From Geminicoccus roseus DSM 18922 (GTDB lineage Bacteria > Pseudomonadota > Alphaproteobacteria > Geminicoccales > Geminicoccaceae), in the NCBI RefSeq assembly GCF_000427665.1, contig NZ_KE386572.1:2132196-2196195 (forward strand): 64,000 nt of DNA, read 5' to 3'. Below, in pieces: positions 2,537-63,668 of this stretch. The translations under genes were made by a program, and so were the position numbers. Position 1 is the first letter of the stretch. Every line of letters starts with the position of its first letter. The notes under the pieces were generated by a model that saw nothing but the letters and a program-made list of their open reading frames with translations, ran no database searches and was not told the origin of the DNA.

Positions 2537-4758
2537 CCCGACCGTCCGCCGCACCCGAACATATCGAGACCGTCCCGCTCGCCCAGGCCCTGTCCGAGCG
2601 CTACCTGGCCTATGCGCTCTCGACCATCACCGCACGCTCCCTGCCCGACGTCCGCGACGGGCTGAAGCCGGTCCAGCGCCGGCTGCTCTACGCCATGCTC
2701 CAGCTGCGCCTGGACCCGGCCGGCGGCTACAAGAAATGCGCCCGCGTGGTCGGCGACGTGATCGGCAAGTTCCACCCGCACGGCGACCAGTCGGTCTACG
2801 ACGCCCTGGTCCGCCTGGCCCAGGACTTCGCCCAGCGCTACACGCTGGTGGAAGGGCAGGGGAACTTCGGCAATGTCGACGGCGATAACCCGGCGGCGAT
2901 GCGCTACACCGAGAGCCGGCTGACCAGATACGCCATGGCGCTGCTGGACGGGATCGACCAGGACACGGTCGACTTCCGCCCGACCTATGACGGCAGCGAG
3001 GACGAGCCGGTGGTCCTGCCGGCGGCCGTGCCGAACCTGCTGGCCAACGGCGCCACCGGCATCGCGGTGGGCATGGCGACCTCGATCCTGCCGCACAATG
3101 TCGGCGAATTGTGCGACGCGCTCCTGTTCATGCTGGGCCGCCCGGCCGACGCGCCGCGGCCGACCGCCTCGGAGCTGATGAAGTTCGTCCCGGGCCCGGA
3201 CCTGCCGACCGGCGGGATCATCACCGAGAGCCCGGCGGCCATCCAGCACGCCTACACCACCGGCCGCGGCGGCTTTCGCCTGCGCGCCCGCTACACGGTC
3301 GAGCAGCTCCCGCTCGGCCAGTACCGGATCATCGTCGACCAGATCCCGTTCCAGGTGCAGAAAAGCCGGCTGATCGAGGACATCGCCGAGCAGCTCATGG
3401 CCAAGAAGCTGCCGCTGCTGGCCGACCTGCGCGACGAATCCACCGACCAGATCCGCATCGTCCTGGTGCCGCGCGCCCGCACGGTCGAGCCGGAGCTCCT
3501 GATGGAGCAGCTGTTCCGCGCCTCCGACCTGGAGGTGCGGCTGTCCCTGAACCTGAACGTGCTGGACGCCACCGGCACGCCCCGGGTGATGGGGCTGGCC
3601 GAGGTCCTGCAGTCCTGGCTCGACCACCGCATGATCGTGCTGGAGCGGCGCTCGCGCTACCGCTTAGGCAAGATCGAGGACCGGCTGCACATCCTGGAAG
3701 GCTATCTGAAGGCCTTTTTGGATATCGACGAGGTGATCCGGATCATCCGCGAGGAGGACGAGCCGAAGCCGGCCCTGATGAAGCGCTTCGAGCTCACCGA
3801 GATTCAGGCCGAAGCGATCCTGAACCTGCGCCTGCGCAACCTGCGCCGGCTGGAGGAGATGGACCTGCGCAAGGAGCATGCGGACCTGGAGGCCGAGAAG
3901 GCGAAGCTGGACCGGCTGCTGGCCGACCCGAAGCTGCGCCGCAAGGCGCTGGCCGACGAGGTCAAGGCCAGCCGCAAGGCGTTCGCCGACCCGCGCCGCA
4001 CCCAGTTCGGCACCGCCCCGGTGATCGAGCCGGAGCGGTTCGAGGCCCAGGTCGAGCGATTCCCGGTGACCATCCTGCTCTCGCAGCACAACTGGATCCG
4101 CACGGTGCGCGGCCACCAGCAGGACCTGTCGGAGCAGAAGTACAAGGAAGGCGACGCGGCCCGCTTCGCCCTGGAGGCGCAGACCACCGACCGGCTGCTG
4201 GTGTTCGCCGCCGACGGCAAGATGTTCACGGTCCCGGTCGACCGCCTGCCGGGCGGGCGCGGCACCGGCGAGCCCTTGTCCCTGTTCGCGGACATCGCCA
4301 AGGGCGTGCCGATCATCGACGCGGCGGTGTTCCGGCCGGACGGCCGGATGGTGGTGGCGACCAAGGCCGGGCGCGGCTTCCTGGTGGAGGAGAGCTCGAT
4401 CGTCGCCTCCACCAAGGCCGGCAAGCAGATCGTCGACCTGGACGAGGGCGACCAGCTGGTGAAGGTCGTGCCGGTGGCCGGCGACCATCTGGCGGTGCTG
4501 GGCAGCCATCGCCGGCTGCTGGTGTTCCCGCTGGATCAGCTCAAGACGCTGGGCCGGGGCAAGGGGGTCCAGCTCATGAAGCTGCACTCCGCCGCGGTGG
4601 TGGACGTGGCGGTGATCGATCCCAAGGCCGGCTTCACCTGGCAGACCGGCAGCCGCCAGCGCCGCGAGGAATGCACGACCTGGATAGGCGAGCGTGCCCA
4701 GTCCGGGCGGGCCACGCCGGTCGGATTCCCCAAGGACCTGTCGTTCACACGTTCGTGA
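2533..4758 (+). CDS. parC: DNA topoisomerase IV subunit A
   Basis: Breakage-reunion subunit of topoisomerase IV, which decatenates daughter chromosomes; partner of ParE (not in this window). The 741-residue protein has the GyrA/ParC core from about 20 to 460. The catalytic tyrosine is Tyr125 in [10 protein letters not shown], and the quinolone-determining loop is [10 protein letters not shown] at 81-90. Position 86 (equivalent of E. coli ParC Ser80) is Gln, which I believe is usual for alpha ParC. The C-terminal half is a beta-pinwheel without a GyrA box (QRRGGKG type), favouring ParC over GyrA. The length of 741 also fits ParC. The ATG at 2533 overlaps the recO stop. Confidence 0.92.
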
Positions 4759-4817
4759 TCGAGTGACCAGGCGGCGCGGATCGTCGTACCTTCACCCATC
4801 GAAGGGAAAGGACCGAC

Positions 4818-5780
4818 ATGCTGACCCGCGCGCGCAGGATCTGGGACGTGATCGACCACCGGGTGACCGACGAGGCGCTGGCGCTCGACCGGCGCCGGCT
4901 CCTGGCCGGAATCGGGCTGGGCGCCGCCATGGCGGCGCTGCCGCTTCGCGCCCGTGCCCAGGAGGGCGGCGAGCTGATCGCCCCGGAACTCTATCCCGGC
5001 GAGCGCAATCCGGCCTTCACGCTGGACCGGCCGCTCACCGAGGAGAAGATCGCCACCAGCTACAACAATTTCTACGAGTTCGGCGGCAGCAAGGACATCG
5101 TCGACGCCGCGCAGGCGCTCACCATCCGCCCCTGGGCGCTCACCATCGATGGGATGGTCGAGGAGCCGATGGAGATCGACGTCGAGGCGGTGGTGCGGCG
5201 CATCCCGATCGAGGAGCGCCTCTACCGGCACCGCTGCGTGGAAGCCTGGTCGATGGACGTGCCGTGGAGCGGCTTCCCCCTGAAAGCCCTGCTCGACTTG
5301 GCACGGCCTTTGGGCAGCGCGCAGTACGTGCGCTTCGAGACCTTCCTCAATCCTGACGAGGCTCCGGCACAGGCGCAGTCCTGGTATCCCTGGCCCTATG
5401 TCGAGGGCCTGACGGTGGCCGAGGCCGCCAACGACCTCGCCTTCATCGCGACCGGCATGTACGGCAAGCCGCTGCTCAAGCAGAACGGCGCACCGATCCG
5501 CCTGGTCACGCCCTGGAAGTACGGGTTCAAGTCGATCAAGTCGATCCGCCGGATCACCCTGACCGACGAGCGGCCGGTGAGCTACTGGGAGGAACTGGGC
5601 CCGAGCGAGTACGGCTTCTGGGCGAACGTGAACCCCGAGGTGCCGCATCCGCGCTGGAGCCAGGCCTTCGAGCGCCCGCTGGGCGATTTCGGCTCGGTGC
5701 CGACCCGGCTGTTCAACGGCTATGCCGAGCAGGTCGCCGGCCTCTACAGCGGGATGGACGGCGAGCAGCTGTATCGCTGA
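4818..5780 (+). CDS. msrP: Periplasmic methionine-sulfoxide reductase, catalytic subunit (molybdopterin)
   Basis: MsrP (YedY) is a molybdopterin enzyme that repairs oxidised methionines in periplasmic proteins. The 320-residue precursor carries a Tat signal with RRR at 25-27 followed by LLAGIGLGAAMAALPL and a cleavage site near ARA-QE (47-49). The conserved molybdenum-ligand cysteine is Cys140 in YRHRCVEAWSM. The oxidoreductase-Mo fold continues to about 260 (KYGFKSIKSI). A ribosome site (AGGGAAAGG) lies just before the ATG. The usual heme-membrane electron donor MsrQ is not encoded next to it or elsewhere in the window. Confidence 0.95.
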   Translation: MLTRARRIWDVIDHRVTDEALALDRRRLLAGIGLGAAMAALPLRARAQEGGELIAPELYPGERNPAFTLDRPLTEEKIATSYNNFYEFGGSKDIVDAAQALTIRPWALTIDGMVEEPMEIDVEAVVRRIPIEERLYRHRCVEAWSMDVPWSGFPLKALLDLARPLGSAQYVRFETFLNPDEAPAQAQSWYPWPYVEGLTVAEAANDLAFIATGMYGKPLLKQNGAPIRLVTPWKYGFKSIKSIRRITLTDERPVSYWEELGPSEYGFWANVNPEVPHPRWSQAFERPLGDFGSVPTRLFNGYAEQVAGLYSGMDGEQLYR

Positions 5781-5803
5781 TAGTTCTGCCCATGTGGCCA
5801 CTC

Positions 5804-5837
5804 AGGACAGCGCCCTCCTACGGGAGCCGCCTGTCCT
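5804..5837 (+). terminator. Stem-loop after msrP, possible weak terminator
   Basis: Arms AGGACAG and CTGTCCT (7 bp) enclose a second helix of CTCC with GGAG. It lies 24 bp after the msrP stop. No solid T-run follows, only CATATACGGTTCTATTT, so intrinsic termination would be weak. Confidence 0.4.
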
Positions 5838-5935
5838 CATATACGGTTCTATTTGTTGCGGTGCAGCATCCACTGGCGCTTTTGCTGGGCTGGCTAAGTT
5901 GCACTGCAGCAAGAGAACCCAGCAATTGTTAAATT

Positions 5936-6007
5936 CATGCCGAAACTCGGGCGAGTTTGTATGGCATGCTTGACGACGTCCGAAATGCCGTCGATAAGGT
6001 CGGACGT
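5936..6007. other. Two consecutive long stem-loops in a gene-free stretch
   Basis: First hairpin, 5936-5968: arms CATGCC and GGCATG with an inner 6-bp stem AAACTC-gggc-GAGTTT. Second hairpin, 5976-6007: arms ACGTCCG and CGGACGT around an 18-nt loop. Neither has a T-run on either side. They sit immediately downstream, in minus-strand sense, of the terminator at 6021-6052, so they are not part of that transcript. No open frame with a credible ribosome site covers them. Base composition here is visibly less GC-rich than in the flanking genes. Function unknown. Confidence 0.5.
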
Positions 6008-6020
6008 TATCCGCTTGAAC

Positions 6021-6052
6021 AAAAAAAAGTGGCCGGGTCTTGCGACCCGGCC
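6021..6052 (-). terminator. Intrinsic terminator on the minus strand
   Basis: Perfect 9-bp stem GGCCGGGTC / GACCCGGCC with a 4-nt loop. On the plus strand it is preceded by eight A residues (6021-6028), so read on the minus strand the hairpin is followed by AC and eight T residues. It ends a transcript coming from the right, either the LysR mRNA with a roughly 240-nt 3' tail or a separate small RNA in 6053-6295. Confidence 0.85.
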
Positions 6053-6295
6053 GAGTAGATCAGGGAGGCTAAAAACCTGGGAAACGAACCGAGGTTCGTT
6101 TTGGACCCAGCGTAGCCGGATCCGGTCGGAGGAGAGCTAGGCTCGACCCTCAGACCCTAGCAACGCATCCCAGGCGGTGCGTTGCTGCAGTGCGGAAACT
6201 AATCGTGTTTCGGTGGTTTGCCTAGGCCTGTTCGAGATGGGTGGCGTGCGCTTGGCGCATGTCACCCATCGGCTGTGGCCAAAATGCCAGCGTTT
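6053..6295 (-). ncRNA. Candidate structured non-coding RNA or structured 3' UTR of the LysR gene
   Basis: No gene fits these 243 bases, but they are unusually rich in perfect stems. These are AAACGAACC/GGTTCGTTT (6082-6101) inside an outer CTGGG/CCCAG pair (6077-6110), AGCAACGCA/TGCGTTGCT (6159-6186) and GATGGGTG/CACCCATC (6236-6270) with an inner TGCGC/GCGCA. They end at the minus-strand terminator at 6021-6052. I compared the stretch from memory with 6S RNA, 4.5S RNA, RNase P RNA and tmRNA and could not match any. The strand is inferred from the terminator only. Confidence 0.4.
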
Positions 6296-7240
6296 TTACC
6301 AGACCGGCTGCTCTGCGACCTTTTCCAGCAGGAAGTCGCGGAAGACCGTTACCCGCTTGGAAGCGCGCAGCTCCTCCGGATAAACGAAATAGCAGGTGAA
6401 CACCGGGCCCTCGAGGTCGGGCAGGACCCGAACCAGGTTCTTGCTGGGGGCGCCCAGATAGTCGGGGAGCGAGGCCAGGCCCAGCCCGGCTTCCGCCGTG
6501 CGCAGCATGCCGTAGACATGGTTGACGGTCATGGTCGGCCGGCGCGGCGCCGCCTGGCCTTCCTCGTCCTTGCCTGCCGTCAGGATCCAGTTCAGCGAGG
6601 GTACCGGCGCCTCGTCGCCGTAGACGATCAGCCGGTGCCGATCCAGGTCGTCCGGCCGCTCGGGCAGGCCATGCTTGGCCAGGTAGCCCGGCGCTGCATA
6701 GATGTGGGTGTGCGAGGTCATCAGCTTGCGCTGGACGAGGTCGCCCTGGGTCGGCCGGGTCAGCCGCAGCGCCACGTCGGCCTGGCGCATCCCCAGGTCC
6801 AGGTCATCGTCGGTCACCATCAGGGCGACGGTGATCTCGGGATAAAGGTCCAGGAACGCCGGCAGGTGGTGGGTCAGCCAGACCGTGCCGATGCCCACCG
6901 TGGTGGTGATCCGCAGATGGCCGGCCGGCTCGTCACGGCGCTCCTGGAGCGCCGTGACGGTCATCGCCATCTTGCGCGCGATCTCCCGGGCGGTCTCCAG
7001 CAGGATCTCGCCCTGCTCGGTCAGCACCAGGCCGCGGGCATGCCGGTGGAACACCGCAGCGCCCAGCTCGTCCTCCAGCGCGCTGATCTGCCGGCTGATC
7101 GCCGACTGCGACAGGCCCAGCCGGTCGGCCGCCTTGGTGAAGCTTCCCGCCTCCGCCACCGAATGGAAGATCCGGATCCGGTCCCAGTCGGGGCCTTCGG
7201 TCTTGAAGAAGTCCTTGTCCTGCGTCCCTCGGGCGACCAT
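6296..7240 (-). CDS. LysR-family transcriptional regulator next to trxB
   Basis: The 314-residue protein has an N-terminal winged helix-turn-helix (about 18-78) with the classic LysR run AGSFTKAADRLGLSQSAISR and then LEDELGAAVFHR. A periplasmic-binding-like effector domain covers about 105-305. The start at 7240 was chosen because it lies 4 bp after the trxB stop and is the last ATG before the HTH. An upstream ATG at 7282 would lie inside trxB. The effector is unknown. Co-transcription with trxB suggests a link to thiol redox state or oxidative stress, but this is inference. Confidence 0.88.
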   Translation of the reverse strand: MVARGTQDKDFFKTEGPDWDRIRIFHSVAEAGSFTKAADRLGLSQSAISRQISALEDELGAAVFHRHARGLVLTEQGEILLETAREIARKMAMTVTALQERRDEPAGHLRITTTVGIGTVWLTHHLPAFLDLYPEITVALMVTDDDLDLGMRQADVALRLTRPTQGDLVQRKLMTSHTHIYAAPGYLAKHGLPERPDDLDRHRLIVYGDEAPVPSLNWILTAGKDEEGQAAPRRPTMTVNHVYGMLRTAEAGLGLASLPDYLGAPSKNLVRVLPDLEGPVFTCYFVYPEELRASKRVTVFRDFLLEKVAEQPVW

Positions 7241-61725: not shown

Positions 61726-62043
61726 ATGGCGGACCGGGAACTCGAACAGCTCGACCGCCAGCTGCGGCGGATCGAGAAGGAGCTGCCCGTCCGTGCCGCC
61801 CGGACGCTGCAATGGCTGCGCGAGCCCTCGTCACGCTGGATCAGGATTCCGGTCGGCGTCCTCGCGGTGATCGGCGGCCTGCTCAGCTTCCTGCCGATCC
61901 TGGGCCTGTGGATGCTGCCCCTGGGCCTGCTGCTGCTCGCCCAGGACGTCCCGCCCCTGCGCCGCCCGACCCGCCGCGCCCTGATCCGCATCGAGCAATG
62001 GTGGGTCCGCCGCAAGCGTAAGCGTCGCCTCGCCACCCGCTGA
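61726..62043 (+). CDS. Small membrane protein, 105 residues
   Basis: The protein has a charged N-terminal helix (MADRELEQLDRQLRRIEKEL), two adjacent membrane segments (about 41-73, PVGVLAVIGGLLSFLPILGLWMLPLGLLLLA) and a very basic tail (RIEQWWVRRKRKRRLATR). GGGGAGGAG precedes the ATG. Similar small GFLP-LGxWMLPLG proteins are common in alphas; I know of no function. Confidence 0.75.
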   Translation: MADRELEQLDRQLRRIEKELPVRAARTLQWLREPSSRWIRIPVGVLAVIGGLLSFLPILGLWMLPLGLLLLAQDVPPLRRPTRRALIRIEQWWVRRKRKRRLATR

Positions 62044-62196: not shown

Positions 62197-62960
62197 AATC
62201 CTCCCATCGCCCAAACGAACCCGAGCGCGCGAACCGGGCCGCTCCGGCCCGAAGCCTCGCCACGTGCATGCCCGGCGGATTTGCACGAACGAACCCGAGA
62301 CACCGGCTGCGAAACGAACCCGAGCGCGGGGACGATCCCGGCCCTGGCGCGCTTTGGCTCCTCATCCGCTCGAGCACTCGCCACCGACATGCCGGCGGAT
62401 TTGCACGAGCGAACCCGAGAGGTCGGCTGCGAAACGAACCCGAGCGCGGGGACGATCCCGGCCCTGGCGCGCTTTGGCTCCTCATCCGCCCGAGCACTTG
62501 CCACCGACATGCCGACGGATTTGCACGAACGAACCCGAGACACCGGCTGCGAAACGAACCCGAGCACGGGGACGATGCCGGGCCCAGCCCGCTCCAGCTC
62601 CTCATCCGCCCGAGGCCCCGCCACGGACATGCCCGACGGATTTGCACAAACGAACCCGAGCGCAGGGACGTTGCCGGCCCTGGCCTACTCCGGTCCAAGC
62701 TCACCACGGGCATGTCCGGCGGATTTACACGAACAAATCCGAGACACCGGCTGCGCGACGAGCCCGAGCCTGGGGATACCGGTCAGATGATGCTCCCGAG
62801 GCCGGCCCGGGATCCTGTTCCATGCCGCAGGGCGCGCTTTGCACGAACGAACCTGAGGATGGCGGGAACCGGGGCCAGGCCCTGTTCCCCTGGCCGCTGC
62901 CGGCCGCGATCCGCGCCACTCCTCATCAGGGATTTCCACGAACGAACCCGAGCCGTCCCG
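62197..62960 (+). repeat. Tandem 120-bp repeat tract with a CGAACCCGAG core
   Basis: Three near-identical 120-bp units (about 62266-62385, 62386-62505, 62506-62625) are flanked by degraded copies on both sides. The core CGAACCCGAG occurs exactly nine times, at 62216, 62290, 62315, 62410, 62435, 62530, 62555, 62651 and 62943. Further variants occur near 62730, 62759 and 62848. Each unit carries two cores 25 bp apart, in two contexts: TTTGCACGAACGAACCCGAG and GCGAAACGAACCCGAGCGCG. All copies lie on one strand. Because 120 is divisible by three, frames stay open on both strands; no ribosome site or family supports a protein. Probably non-coding. Confidence 0.85.
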
Positions 62961-62993: not shown

Positions 62994-63027
62994 AAGGGAG
63001 CCGGTCGCTGCCCCGACCGGCTCCCTT
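62994..63027 (-). terminator. Intrinsic terminator after the Hsp20 gene
   Basis: Minus strand: 13-bp stem AAGGGAGCCGGTC / GACCGGCTCCCTT with an 8-nt loop, followed by TTCGC. It lies about 56 bp after the Hsp20 stop. Confidence 0.85.
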
Positions 63028-63082: not shown

Positions 63083-63559
63083 TTACGCGGCGGCCTTGTT
63101 GTCCTGCTGCTCGATCACCTTCGGCTGCGCGGTCTTCTCGGCGCCGATCGAGATCTTCTTCGGCTGCAGGGCCTCGGGCACCTCGCGCTTCAGCTGTACG
63201 TCGAGCAGGCCGTTGACCAGGTTGGCGCTGACCACCTGGACGTGGTCGGCCAGCTGGAAGCGGTGCTCGAAGGCGCGCTGGGCGATGCCGCGATAAAGAT
63301 ACTCGACGCCCTGCTCGGGGCGGGAGATCTGGCCCTTCACGATCAGCTGGTTCTCGTGGACGGTGATGTCGACATCCTCAGGCCCGAACCCGGCGACCGC
63401 CAGGGTCACCCGGTAGGTGTCCTTGCCGTTCTTCACGATATTATAGGGCGGATAGGTCTGCTCGCGGGCAGCTTCACCGAAGGCAGTCTCGAACAGCTTG
63501 TCGAAGCGGTCGAAGCCGACGGAAGCGCGGAGCAGGGGGGAGAGGTCGAAGTTACGCAT
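63083..63559 (-). CDS. Small heat-shock protein, Hsp20/alpha-crystallin family
   Basis: ATP-independent holdase. The 158-residue protein begins MRNFDLSPLLRASVGFDRFDKLFE, as in IbpA/HspH-type proteins. The alpha-crystallin domain (about 35-130) contains YNIVKNGKDTYRVTLAVAGF and ends with the conserved GLL motif (NGLLDVQLKREVPE). A C-terminal Ile-x-Ile (ISI near 138) fits the oligomerisation contact. GGAGG lies 7 bp before the ATG at 63559. Heat control is likely, given the RpoH promoter upstream. Confidence 0.94.
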   Translation of the reverse strand: MRNFDLSPLLRASVGFDRFDKLFETAFGEAAREQTYPPYNIVKNGKDTYRVTLAVAGFGPEDVDITVHENQLIVKGQISRPEQGVEYLYRGIAQRAFEHRFQLADHVQVVSANLVNGLLDVQLKREVPEALQPKKISIGAEKTAQPKVIEQQDNKAAA

Positions 63560-63561
63560 GG

Positions 63562-63582
63562 AAGTCCTCCATTGAGCGACTT
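63562..63582 (-). promoter_or_regulatory. Hairpin over the Hsp20 ribosome site, possible RNA thermometer
   Basis: In the mRNA, AAGTC and GACTT (5 bp) close a loop that contains part of the GGAGG ribosome site (63566-63570). Small heat-shock genes in alphas often carry ROSE-type thermometers. The classic ROSE sequence is not evident, so this is a structural suspicion only. Confidence 0.3.
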
Positions 63583-63668
63583 GGCAAGGGCTGTGCGCGA
63601 ATGCCCCGACCGGAGCCCTTCGCTTCCAACCCACTCGCCGGGCCCATCGTGGCACCCGACGAATTCTC

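Follow-up and report, generated by a model that had tools for sequence, protein, structure and literature searches.

A tandem array between two convergent genes

What kind of sequence would be repeated, always on the same strand, in the gap between two genes? The question is raised by positions 62197-62960 of a 64,000-nucleotide stretch of the Geminicoccus roseus genome (the window). An earlier note, made from the letters of this stretch, had reported nine exact copies of a 10-mer, CGAACCCGAG, on one strand, and we find all nine on the forward strand, starting at 62216, 62290, 62315, 62410, 62435, 62530, 62555, 62651 and 62943. The number expected is 0.37, and none of 100 shuffles reached nine. 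TRF assigned a period of 120 bp, with 3.4 copies and 88% matches over 62247-62660, and the three 120-bp units that had been proposed lie at 62272-62391, 62392-62511 and 62512-62631. Their description as near-perfect was slightly generous, since they are 100, 95 and 88% identical to the first. Each unit holds one A-type and one B-type motif, 25 bp apart, plus a spacer; the alternation of 25 and 95 bp spacings within the units was correctly read, and the two related sub-motifs turn out to be subtypes, GGATTTGCACGAACGAACCCGAG and GGCTGCGAAACGAACCCGAG, of a 20-bp motif dispersed through the genome.

All copies in the tract lie on the forward strand. In unit 1 the A-type motif (GGATTTGCACGAACGAACCCGAG, 62277-62299) is followed by the B-type motif (TGCGAAACGAACCCGAG, 62308-62324), the subtype found at orthologous sites in a sister species, and the same pair recurs at 62397-62419 and 62428-62444 in unit 2 and at 62517-62539 and 62548-62564 in unit 3. 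A B-like copy (GCCCAAACGAACCCGAG) precedes the units at 62209-62225, and an A-type copy with the CACAAACG variant follows them at 62638-62660. The degraded flanking copies that had been suspected are present at 62721-62743 (A-type), 62753-62769 (B-type, TGCGCGACGAGCCCGAG) and 62835-62857 (A-type, CGCTTTGCACGAACGAACCTGAG), with an isolated A-type copy at 62930-62952. Paired sites have here been amplified locally in tandem, and the expansion proposed in the note holds as growth of the 120-bp unit.

The neighbours are also as first described, a small membrane protein of 105 amino acids with no Pfam family (61726-62043, forward) and, convergent with it, hsp20 (63083-63559, reverse; PF00011, E = 3.5e-19). 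A perfect 14-bp inverted repeat with a 6-nt loop (62994-63027) lies apart from the motif array and is the probable terminator of hsp20. In the leader of hsp20 (63553-63659, reverse) a match to the ROSE RNA thermometer stayed below threshold (RF00435; 26.5 bits against a cut-off of 45), with most of the helix that would mask the Shine-Dalgarno sequence preserved. In the comparison with Geminicoccus harenae, gene order at the tract diverges just after ilvC; the IlvC protein of a sister Geminicoccus (L070) is 97% identical.

A 20-bp motif dispersed through the genome

When the 120-bp unit was searched against the G. roseus genome, many other places matched it in part, and the core was all that they had in common. 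The tract is one cluster among many of a motif with the consensus TTTTGC-(ACGA|GAA)-ACGAACCCGAG. Allowing up to three mismatches, ATTTNCACGAACGAACCCGAG occurs 64 times on the forward and 75 times on the reverse strand of the 5.7-Mb genome, 139 times in all, where the reversed control gave none, and these copies fall in about 58 clusters. Several of the arrays are plain tandem duplications, so the copy number overstates the independent gains. Within 55 regions around motif sites we counted 191 core copies at up to three mismatches (control, 0). The conserved span in these regions is about 20 bp (CG-n-TTTTGCACGAACGAACCCGAG-C); core positions carry 1.2-2.0 bits, the flanks are near background and show little beyond base composition, and no longer shared unit was found among the copies. 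The subtypes differ to the left of the core, with TTTTGCACGAACGAACCCGAG in one and TTTTGCGAAACGAACCCGAG in the other. The motif is non-palindromic, and a paired-position test for covariation between positions -8 and -2 was not significant (p = 0.08), for which reason we rejected a hairpin or single-stranded DNA fold. In our literature search no paper described the core as a repeat or reported repeats of this type from Geminicoccus.

The motif is essentially restricted to the Geminicoccaceae, and other Alphaproteobacteria are essentially without it. Counts of AACGAACCCRAG were 134 in G. roseus, 50 in the sister species of the same genus (G001) and 115 in G009, and roughly 0-20 in the other members of the family, with controls of 0-2. 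In a sample of 385 genomes from the class, ACGAACGAACCCRA gave scattered single matches outside the family, except in one genome (G059) with four. The repeated elements in this genome, which belongs to a different family, place ACGAACGAACCCAA about 50 bp from a copy of ACGAAGCCAA (L160, L166, L168 and L170, near 1450-1560) and adjoin a DnaA-box-like TGTGGATAA or similar. Within the Geminicoccaceae, another genus (g13) packs the core into compact arrays that repeat about every 21 bp (L279, 1438-1521; L277, 1419-1501).

The earlier note had offered a protein-binding array, a source of small RNAs or a decaying repeat family, and had suggested that a conserved core with an unconserved spacer would favour the first. 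This is the pattern that we observe genome-wide, and the motif recurs in both the same genome and its relatives, so that DNA recognition sites are supported and the interpretation in the note is right in part.

Orientation follows the local GC skew

Every cluster in G. roseus with at least two good copies has a single orientation, and this orientation is coupled to the composition of the surrounding DNA. Over 8 kb, with the cluster itself removed, the local skew is -0.015 for forward clusters and +0.036 for reverse clusters (p = 4e-8). The skew at third codon positions, corrected for gene strand and with motif-bearing genes excluded, is -0.036 and +0.054, respectively (AUC 0.10, i.e. 0.90; p = 2.3e-7). 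The link holds for single motif copies (p = 4e-4), and the skew at the clusters is a C-for-G exchange that is flat across ±4 kb. Because orientation tracks the local third-position skew, we consider it established that the motif is strand-polar in its own genome. In G009, a member of a second genus, the link has the same direction, below significance (raw p = 0.06, gene-corrected p = 0.11). We rejected composition alone as setting the orientation; the excess of C over G is about two bases and by our own estimate gives odds near 1.1 at the observed skew.

We infer that this polarity has a replication origin. Across the genome the skew divides weakly into two arcs and reverses locally in many places, and within a 400-kb stretch it varies on a 10-kb scale, so that it does not form a simple two-replichore pattern. 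Orientation is coupled to the local third-position skew and not to the two-arc coordinate pattern. Simple replichore polarity was rejected, as orientations are mixed on the long G-rich arc, with 22 forward and 23 reverse clusters. That near equality also weighs against a chromosome-polarity sequence (KOPS or AIMS, or a fork or recombination signal) that first lay on a single replication strand and was later scrambled, together with the skew, by inversions. Such a history would agree with a motif strand that is C-rich at third codon positions across ±4 kb, and is therefore probably the lagging strand, and with the readiness with which synteny with relatives breaks. AIMS are abundant leading-strand 8-mers that become denser toward the terminus (PMC5993296), whereas here we see about 58 clusters of a 20-mer. 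We regard this explanation as unlikely.

Placement between and within genes

Genes were predicted with a codon-usage caller made for this analysis, and gene edges are for this reason approximate. Intergenic clusters make up 41 of the 58, though about 84% of the sequence is coding. Convergent gaps are enriched, accounting for 16 of 44 gaps with a motif compared with 29 of 199 (p = 0.002), and clusters are rarest between divergent genes. Beside genes running in the same direction the orientation is even, 11 against and 9 with, and a small-RNA or terminator role was rejected on this ground. The suggestion that the tract might be a source of small RNAs is not supported either by the Rfam covariance models, none of which matched the tract even at E ≤ 5.

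The other 17 clusters lie within predicted genes, 16 of them in the sense direction (p = 3e-4) and with all three frames in use. The hosts include CysS, LeuS, HtpG, a PKS, an SMC-like ATPase, an SDR and a TatD nuclease, and the sole antisense copy is in an amidase gene. A preferred orientation within genes has been reported for DNA uptake sequences (PMC2346458; PMC3630211), and the motif could in principle mark self-DNA for natural transformation, its dialects and in-place gain arising from biased uptake or recombination. It is short and non-palindromic, has dialects around a fixed core and sits at permissive intergenic positions. Uptake sequences number thousands of copies in the Neisseriaceae, against about 140 here, and their reported pairing is inverted, long direct-repeat arrays being atypical (PMC3630211 for the copy numbers). 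Nor did we detect the machinery, as PilQ was above the cut-off in none of 31 family genomes and the matches to PilM were weak and FtsA-like. Taken together, an uptake function appears rather unlikely.

Changes in place against the sister species

Orthologous sites in the sister species (G001) were located with one concatenated query and then aligned; the coding comparisons cover few genes, and the direction of change is mostly unpolarised. In HtpG, in the SMC-like gene and in the region upstream of an oxidase gene (L183) the motif is present in one species and absent from the other without an indel. In CysS two motif sites are common to both species, and G. roseus is 57 bp longer, which gives two extra copies; a third site, aligned without gaps, reads GCTGCAAAACGAACCCGAGG in the sister species and GCTGCAGGCCGAGCCCGAGG in G. 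roseus. At two intergenic clusters (L190 and L196) and in the PKS gene (L187) the sister species has the GCGAAACGAACCC form and G. roseus the CACGAACGAACCC or CACAAACGAACCC form. The sites in HtpG and CysS sit in loops that vary from one member of the family to another. In the coding comparisons that could be aligned, the motif mostly replaces sequence in place, without an indel, and at orthologous sites one subtype is swapped for the other. Separately, several orthologous matches in the sister species (L238, L241, L242, L244 and L248) break off where the motif lies and go on to one side of it alone; the clusters may thus lie at breaks in synteny or in the assembly.

Gapless changes of this kind in several coding comparisons have already weakened the idea that the motif is a selfish dispersed repeat, akin to RPE or REP elements, which inserts both between genes and into open reading frames. 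The presence of the motif in essential genes and in several frames, and the large differences in copy number between genera, are what such an element would produce. It would have to do so with no palindrome, a negative paired-position test (p = 0.08) and a shared unit not longer than about 20 bp, and we find this account doubtful. It is also conceivable that the motif was written in place by a strand-specific process, for instance one in which short single-stranded DNA, always of one defined strand, enters and anneals at lagging-strand gaps. Entry of this kind would jointly explain the gapless rewriting, the common orientation of a cluster's independent copies, the lagging-like composition and the swap of dialect throughout the genome; we think it quite improbable.

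Tandem growth and arrays in frame

Some clusters have grown by tandem duplication, with 30-bp flank identities of 0.7-0.9 (L180, L185, L195, L197, L199, L204, L213, L226 and L229). In others the spacers are unrelated (0.26-0.5, compared with 0.32 between clusters), yet the copies have the same orientation. Inspection of the spacings by eye revealed no apparent helical phasing. In L229, L199, L185, L208 and L219 all spacings are multiples of three. The 24 copies of L229 (about 3700-6570; G000:C5:5047500-5050369) lie inside one open frame of 2134 codons and possibly encode a repetitive protein built from the motif. L199 (3189-4400, reverse) is predicted to encode a protein of 404 amino acids with alternating TNEPK..RNEPG repeats formed by the motif, and the same site in the sister species has a single motif copy.

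Spacings of this kind would suit a repeat conserved at the protein level, in which the DNA is kept since the encoded TNEPE or HERTR peptide matters. Copies within genes translate as TNEPE, HERTR or RTNP; similar NEPN/KTNPI peptides may occur in planctomycetes and Bradyrhizobium, and broad enrichment was absent from the alphaproteobacterial sample. A coding role could hold for L199 and L229, but is refuted for the tract in the window, where the spacings are not multiples of three and break the frame, and where no open frame matched Pfam; the earlier note had kept a protein repeat in reserve. With 41 of the 58 clusters intergenic and three frames used in genes, it is very improbable for the motif as a whole. 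Plain replication slippage without function, the outcome foreseen in the note for a unit unique to this locus, fits the tandem duplicates of 120 bp and is already refuted as a full account of the tract, the same core occurring at about 58 unrelated sites and also in relatives of other genera; we give it next to no weight. The tract is properly viewed at the scale of the genome; slippage by itself does not explain it, and at this locus it is not coding.

A candidate site for a direction-sensitive factor

The reading that we prefer, with a probability of about one in two, is that the tract is a cluster of DNA-level recognition sites for a candidate sequence-specific, direction-sensitive factor, the sites being copies of a strand-polar 20-bp motif of the Geminicoccaceae. 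The argument combines a signal at the level of DNA with its lack of a palindrome, its polarity, its gain in place, the switch of dialect, its confinement to one family and its permissive sites. From these properties we infer a trans-acting factor for which direction is important, as in DNA uptake, recombination or segregation; the analysis identified neither a binding protein nor a machine. The candidate factor would read the motif in one direction. Sites would arise and be rewritten in place at permissive positions, such as 3' intergenic gaps and variable protein loops, and their dialect would come to differ between species, evolving in the manner of uptake-sequence dialects. Some clusters, that of the window among them, then grow by tandem duplication of a two-site unit, here one of 120 bp that pairs an A-type with a B-type site.

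The motif is clean and restricted to a single family; its dialect differs from one relative to the next, and essential genes contain copies of it. Should it be a recognition site, it would give a direct means of finding an as yet undescribed alphaproteobacterial factor for DNA uptake, recombination or segregation, with the relatives that have near-zero copies as natural controls.

Comparison with known systems

The DUS of Neisseriaceae and the USS of Pasteurellaceae resemble the motif in being short, non-palindromic and dispersed, with a fixed core and species dialects, and in their permissive sites, orientation bias inside genes and strong genome-wide over-representation (here 139 copies against none in the control). 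They differ in number, in length, the motif being longer at about 20 bp, and in arrangement, with direct arrays here in place of inverted pairs. The motif is in addition coupled to strand skew, and neither the type IV pilus secretin nor PilM was detected in the family. We do not claim membership of this class, because there are too few copies and neither PilQ nor PilM was found. AIMS and KOPS share a strand polarity tied to compositional strand asymmetry, but the motif is 20 bp and not an octamer, occurs in about 58 clusters and in arrays, lies on the C-rich strand and follows a local pattern rather than that of a chromosome arm.

Rickettsia palindromic elements are dispersed palindromic sequences found within protein genes as well as between them. 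The motif is likewise present inside and between protein genes, but is not palindromic, is far shorter and in the coding comparisons mostly lacks an insertion footprint, several genes being gapless against the sister species and CysS showing the length difference of 57 bp. REP and BIME sequences are short, clustered, hairpin-forming inverted units enriched at 3' ends and between convergent genes. The motif shares the short clustered repeats and this placement, without a hairpin or covariation, and its orientation does not alternate but is single in each G. roseus cluster of two or more good copies. Membership of the AIMS/KOPS, RPE or REP classes fails on length, number, palindromy or insertion signature. 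Iterons and transcription-factor binding arrays are alike in their direct repeats, conserved core and variable spacers, whereas the motif is dispersed over the chromosome, has no evident fixed helical phase and is rarest between divergent genes. The known dispersed polar motifs, DUS/USS, KOPS/AIMS and Chi, each led to a dedicated machine.
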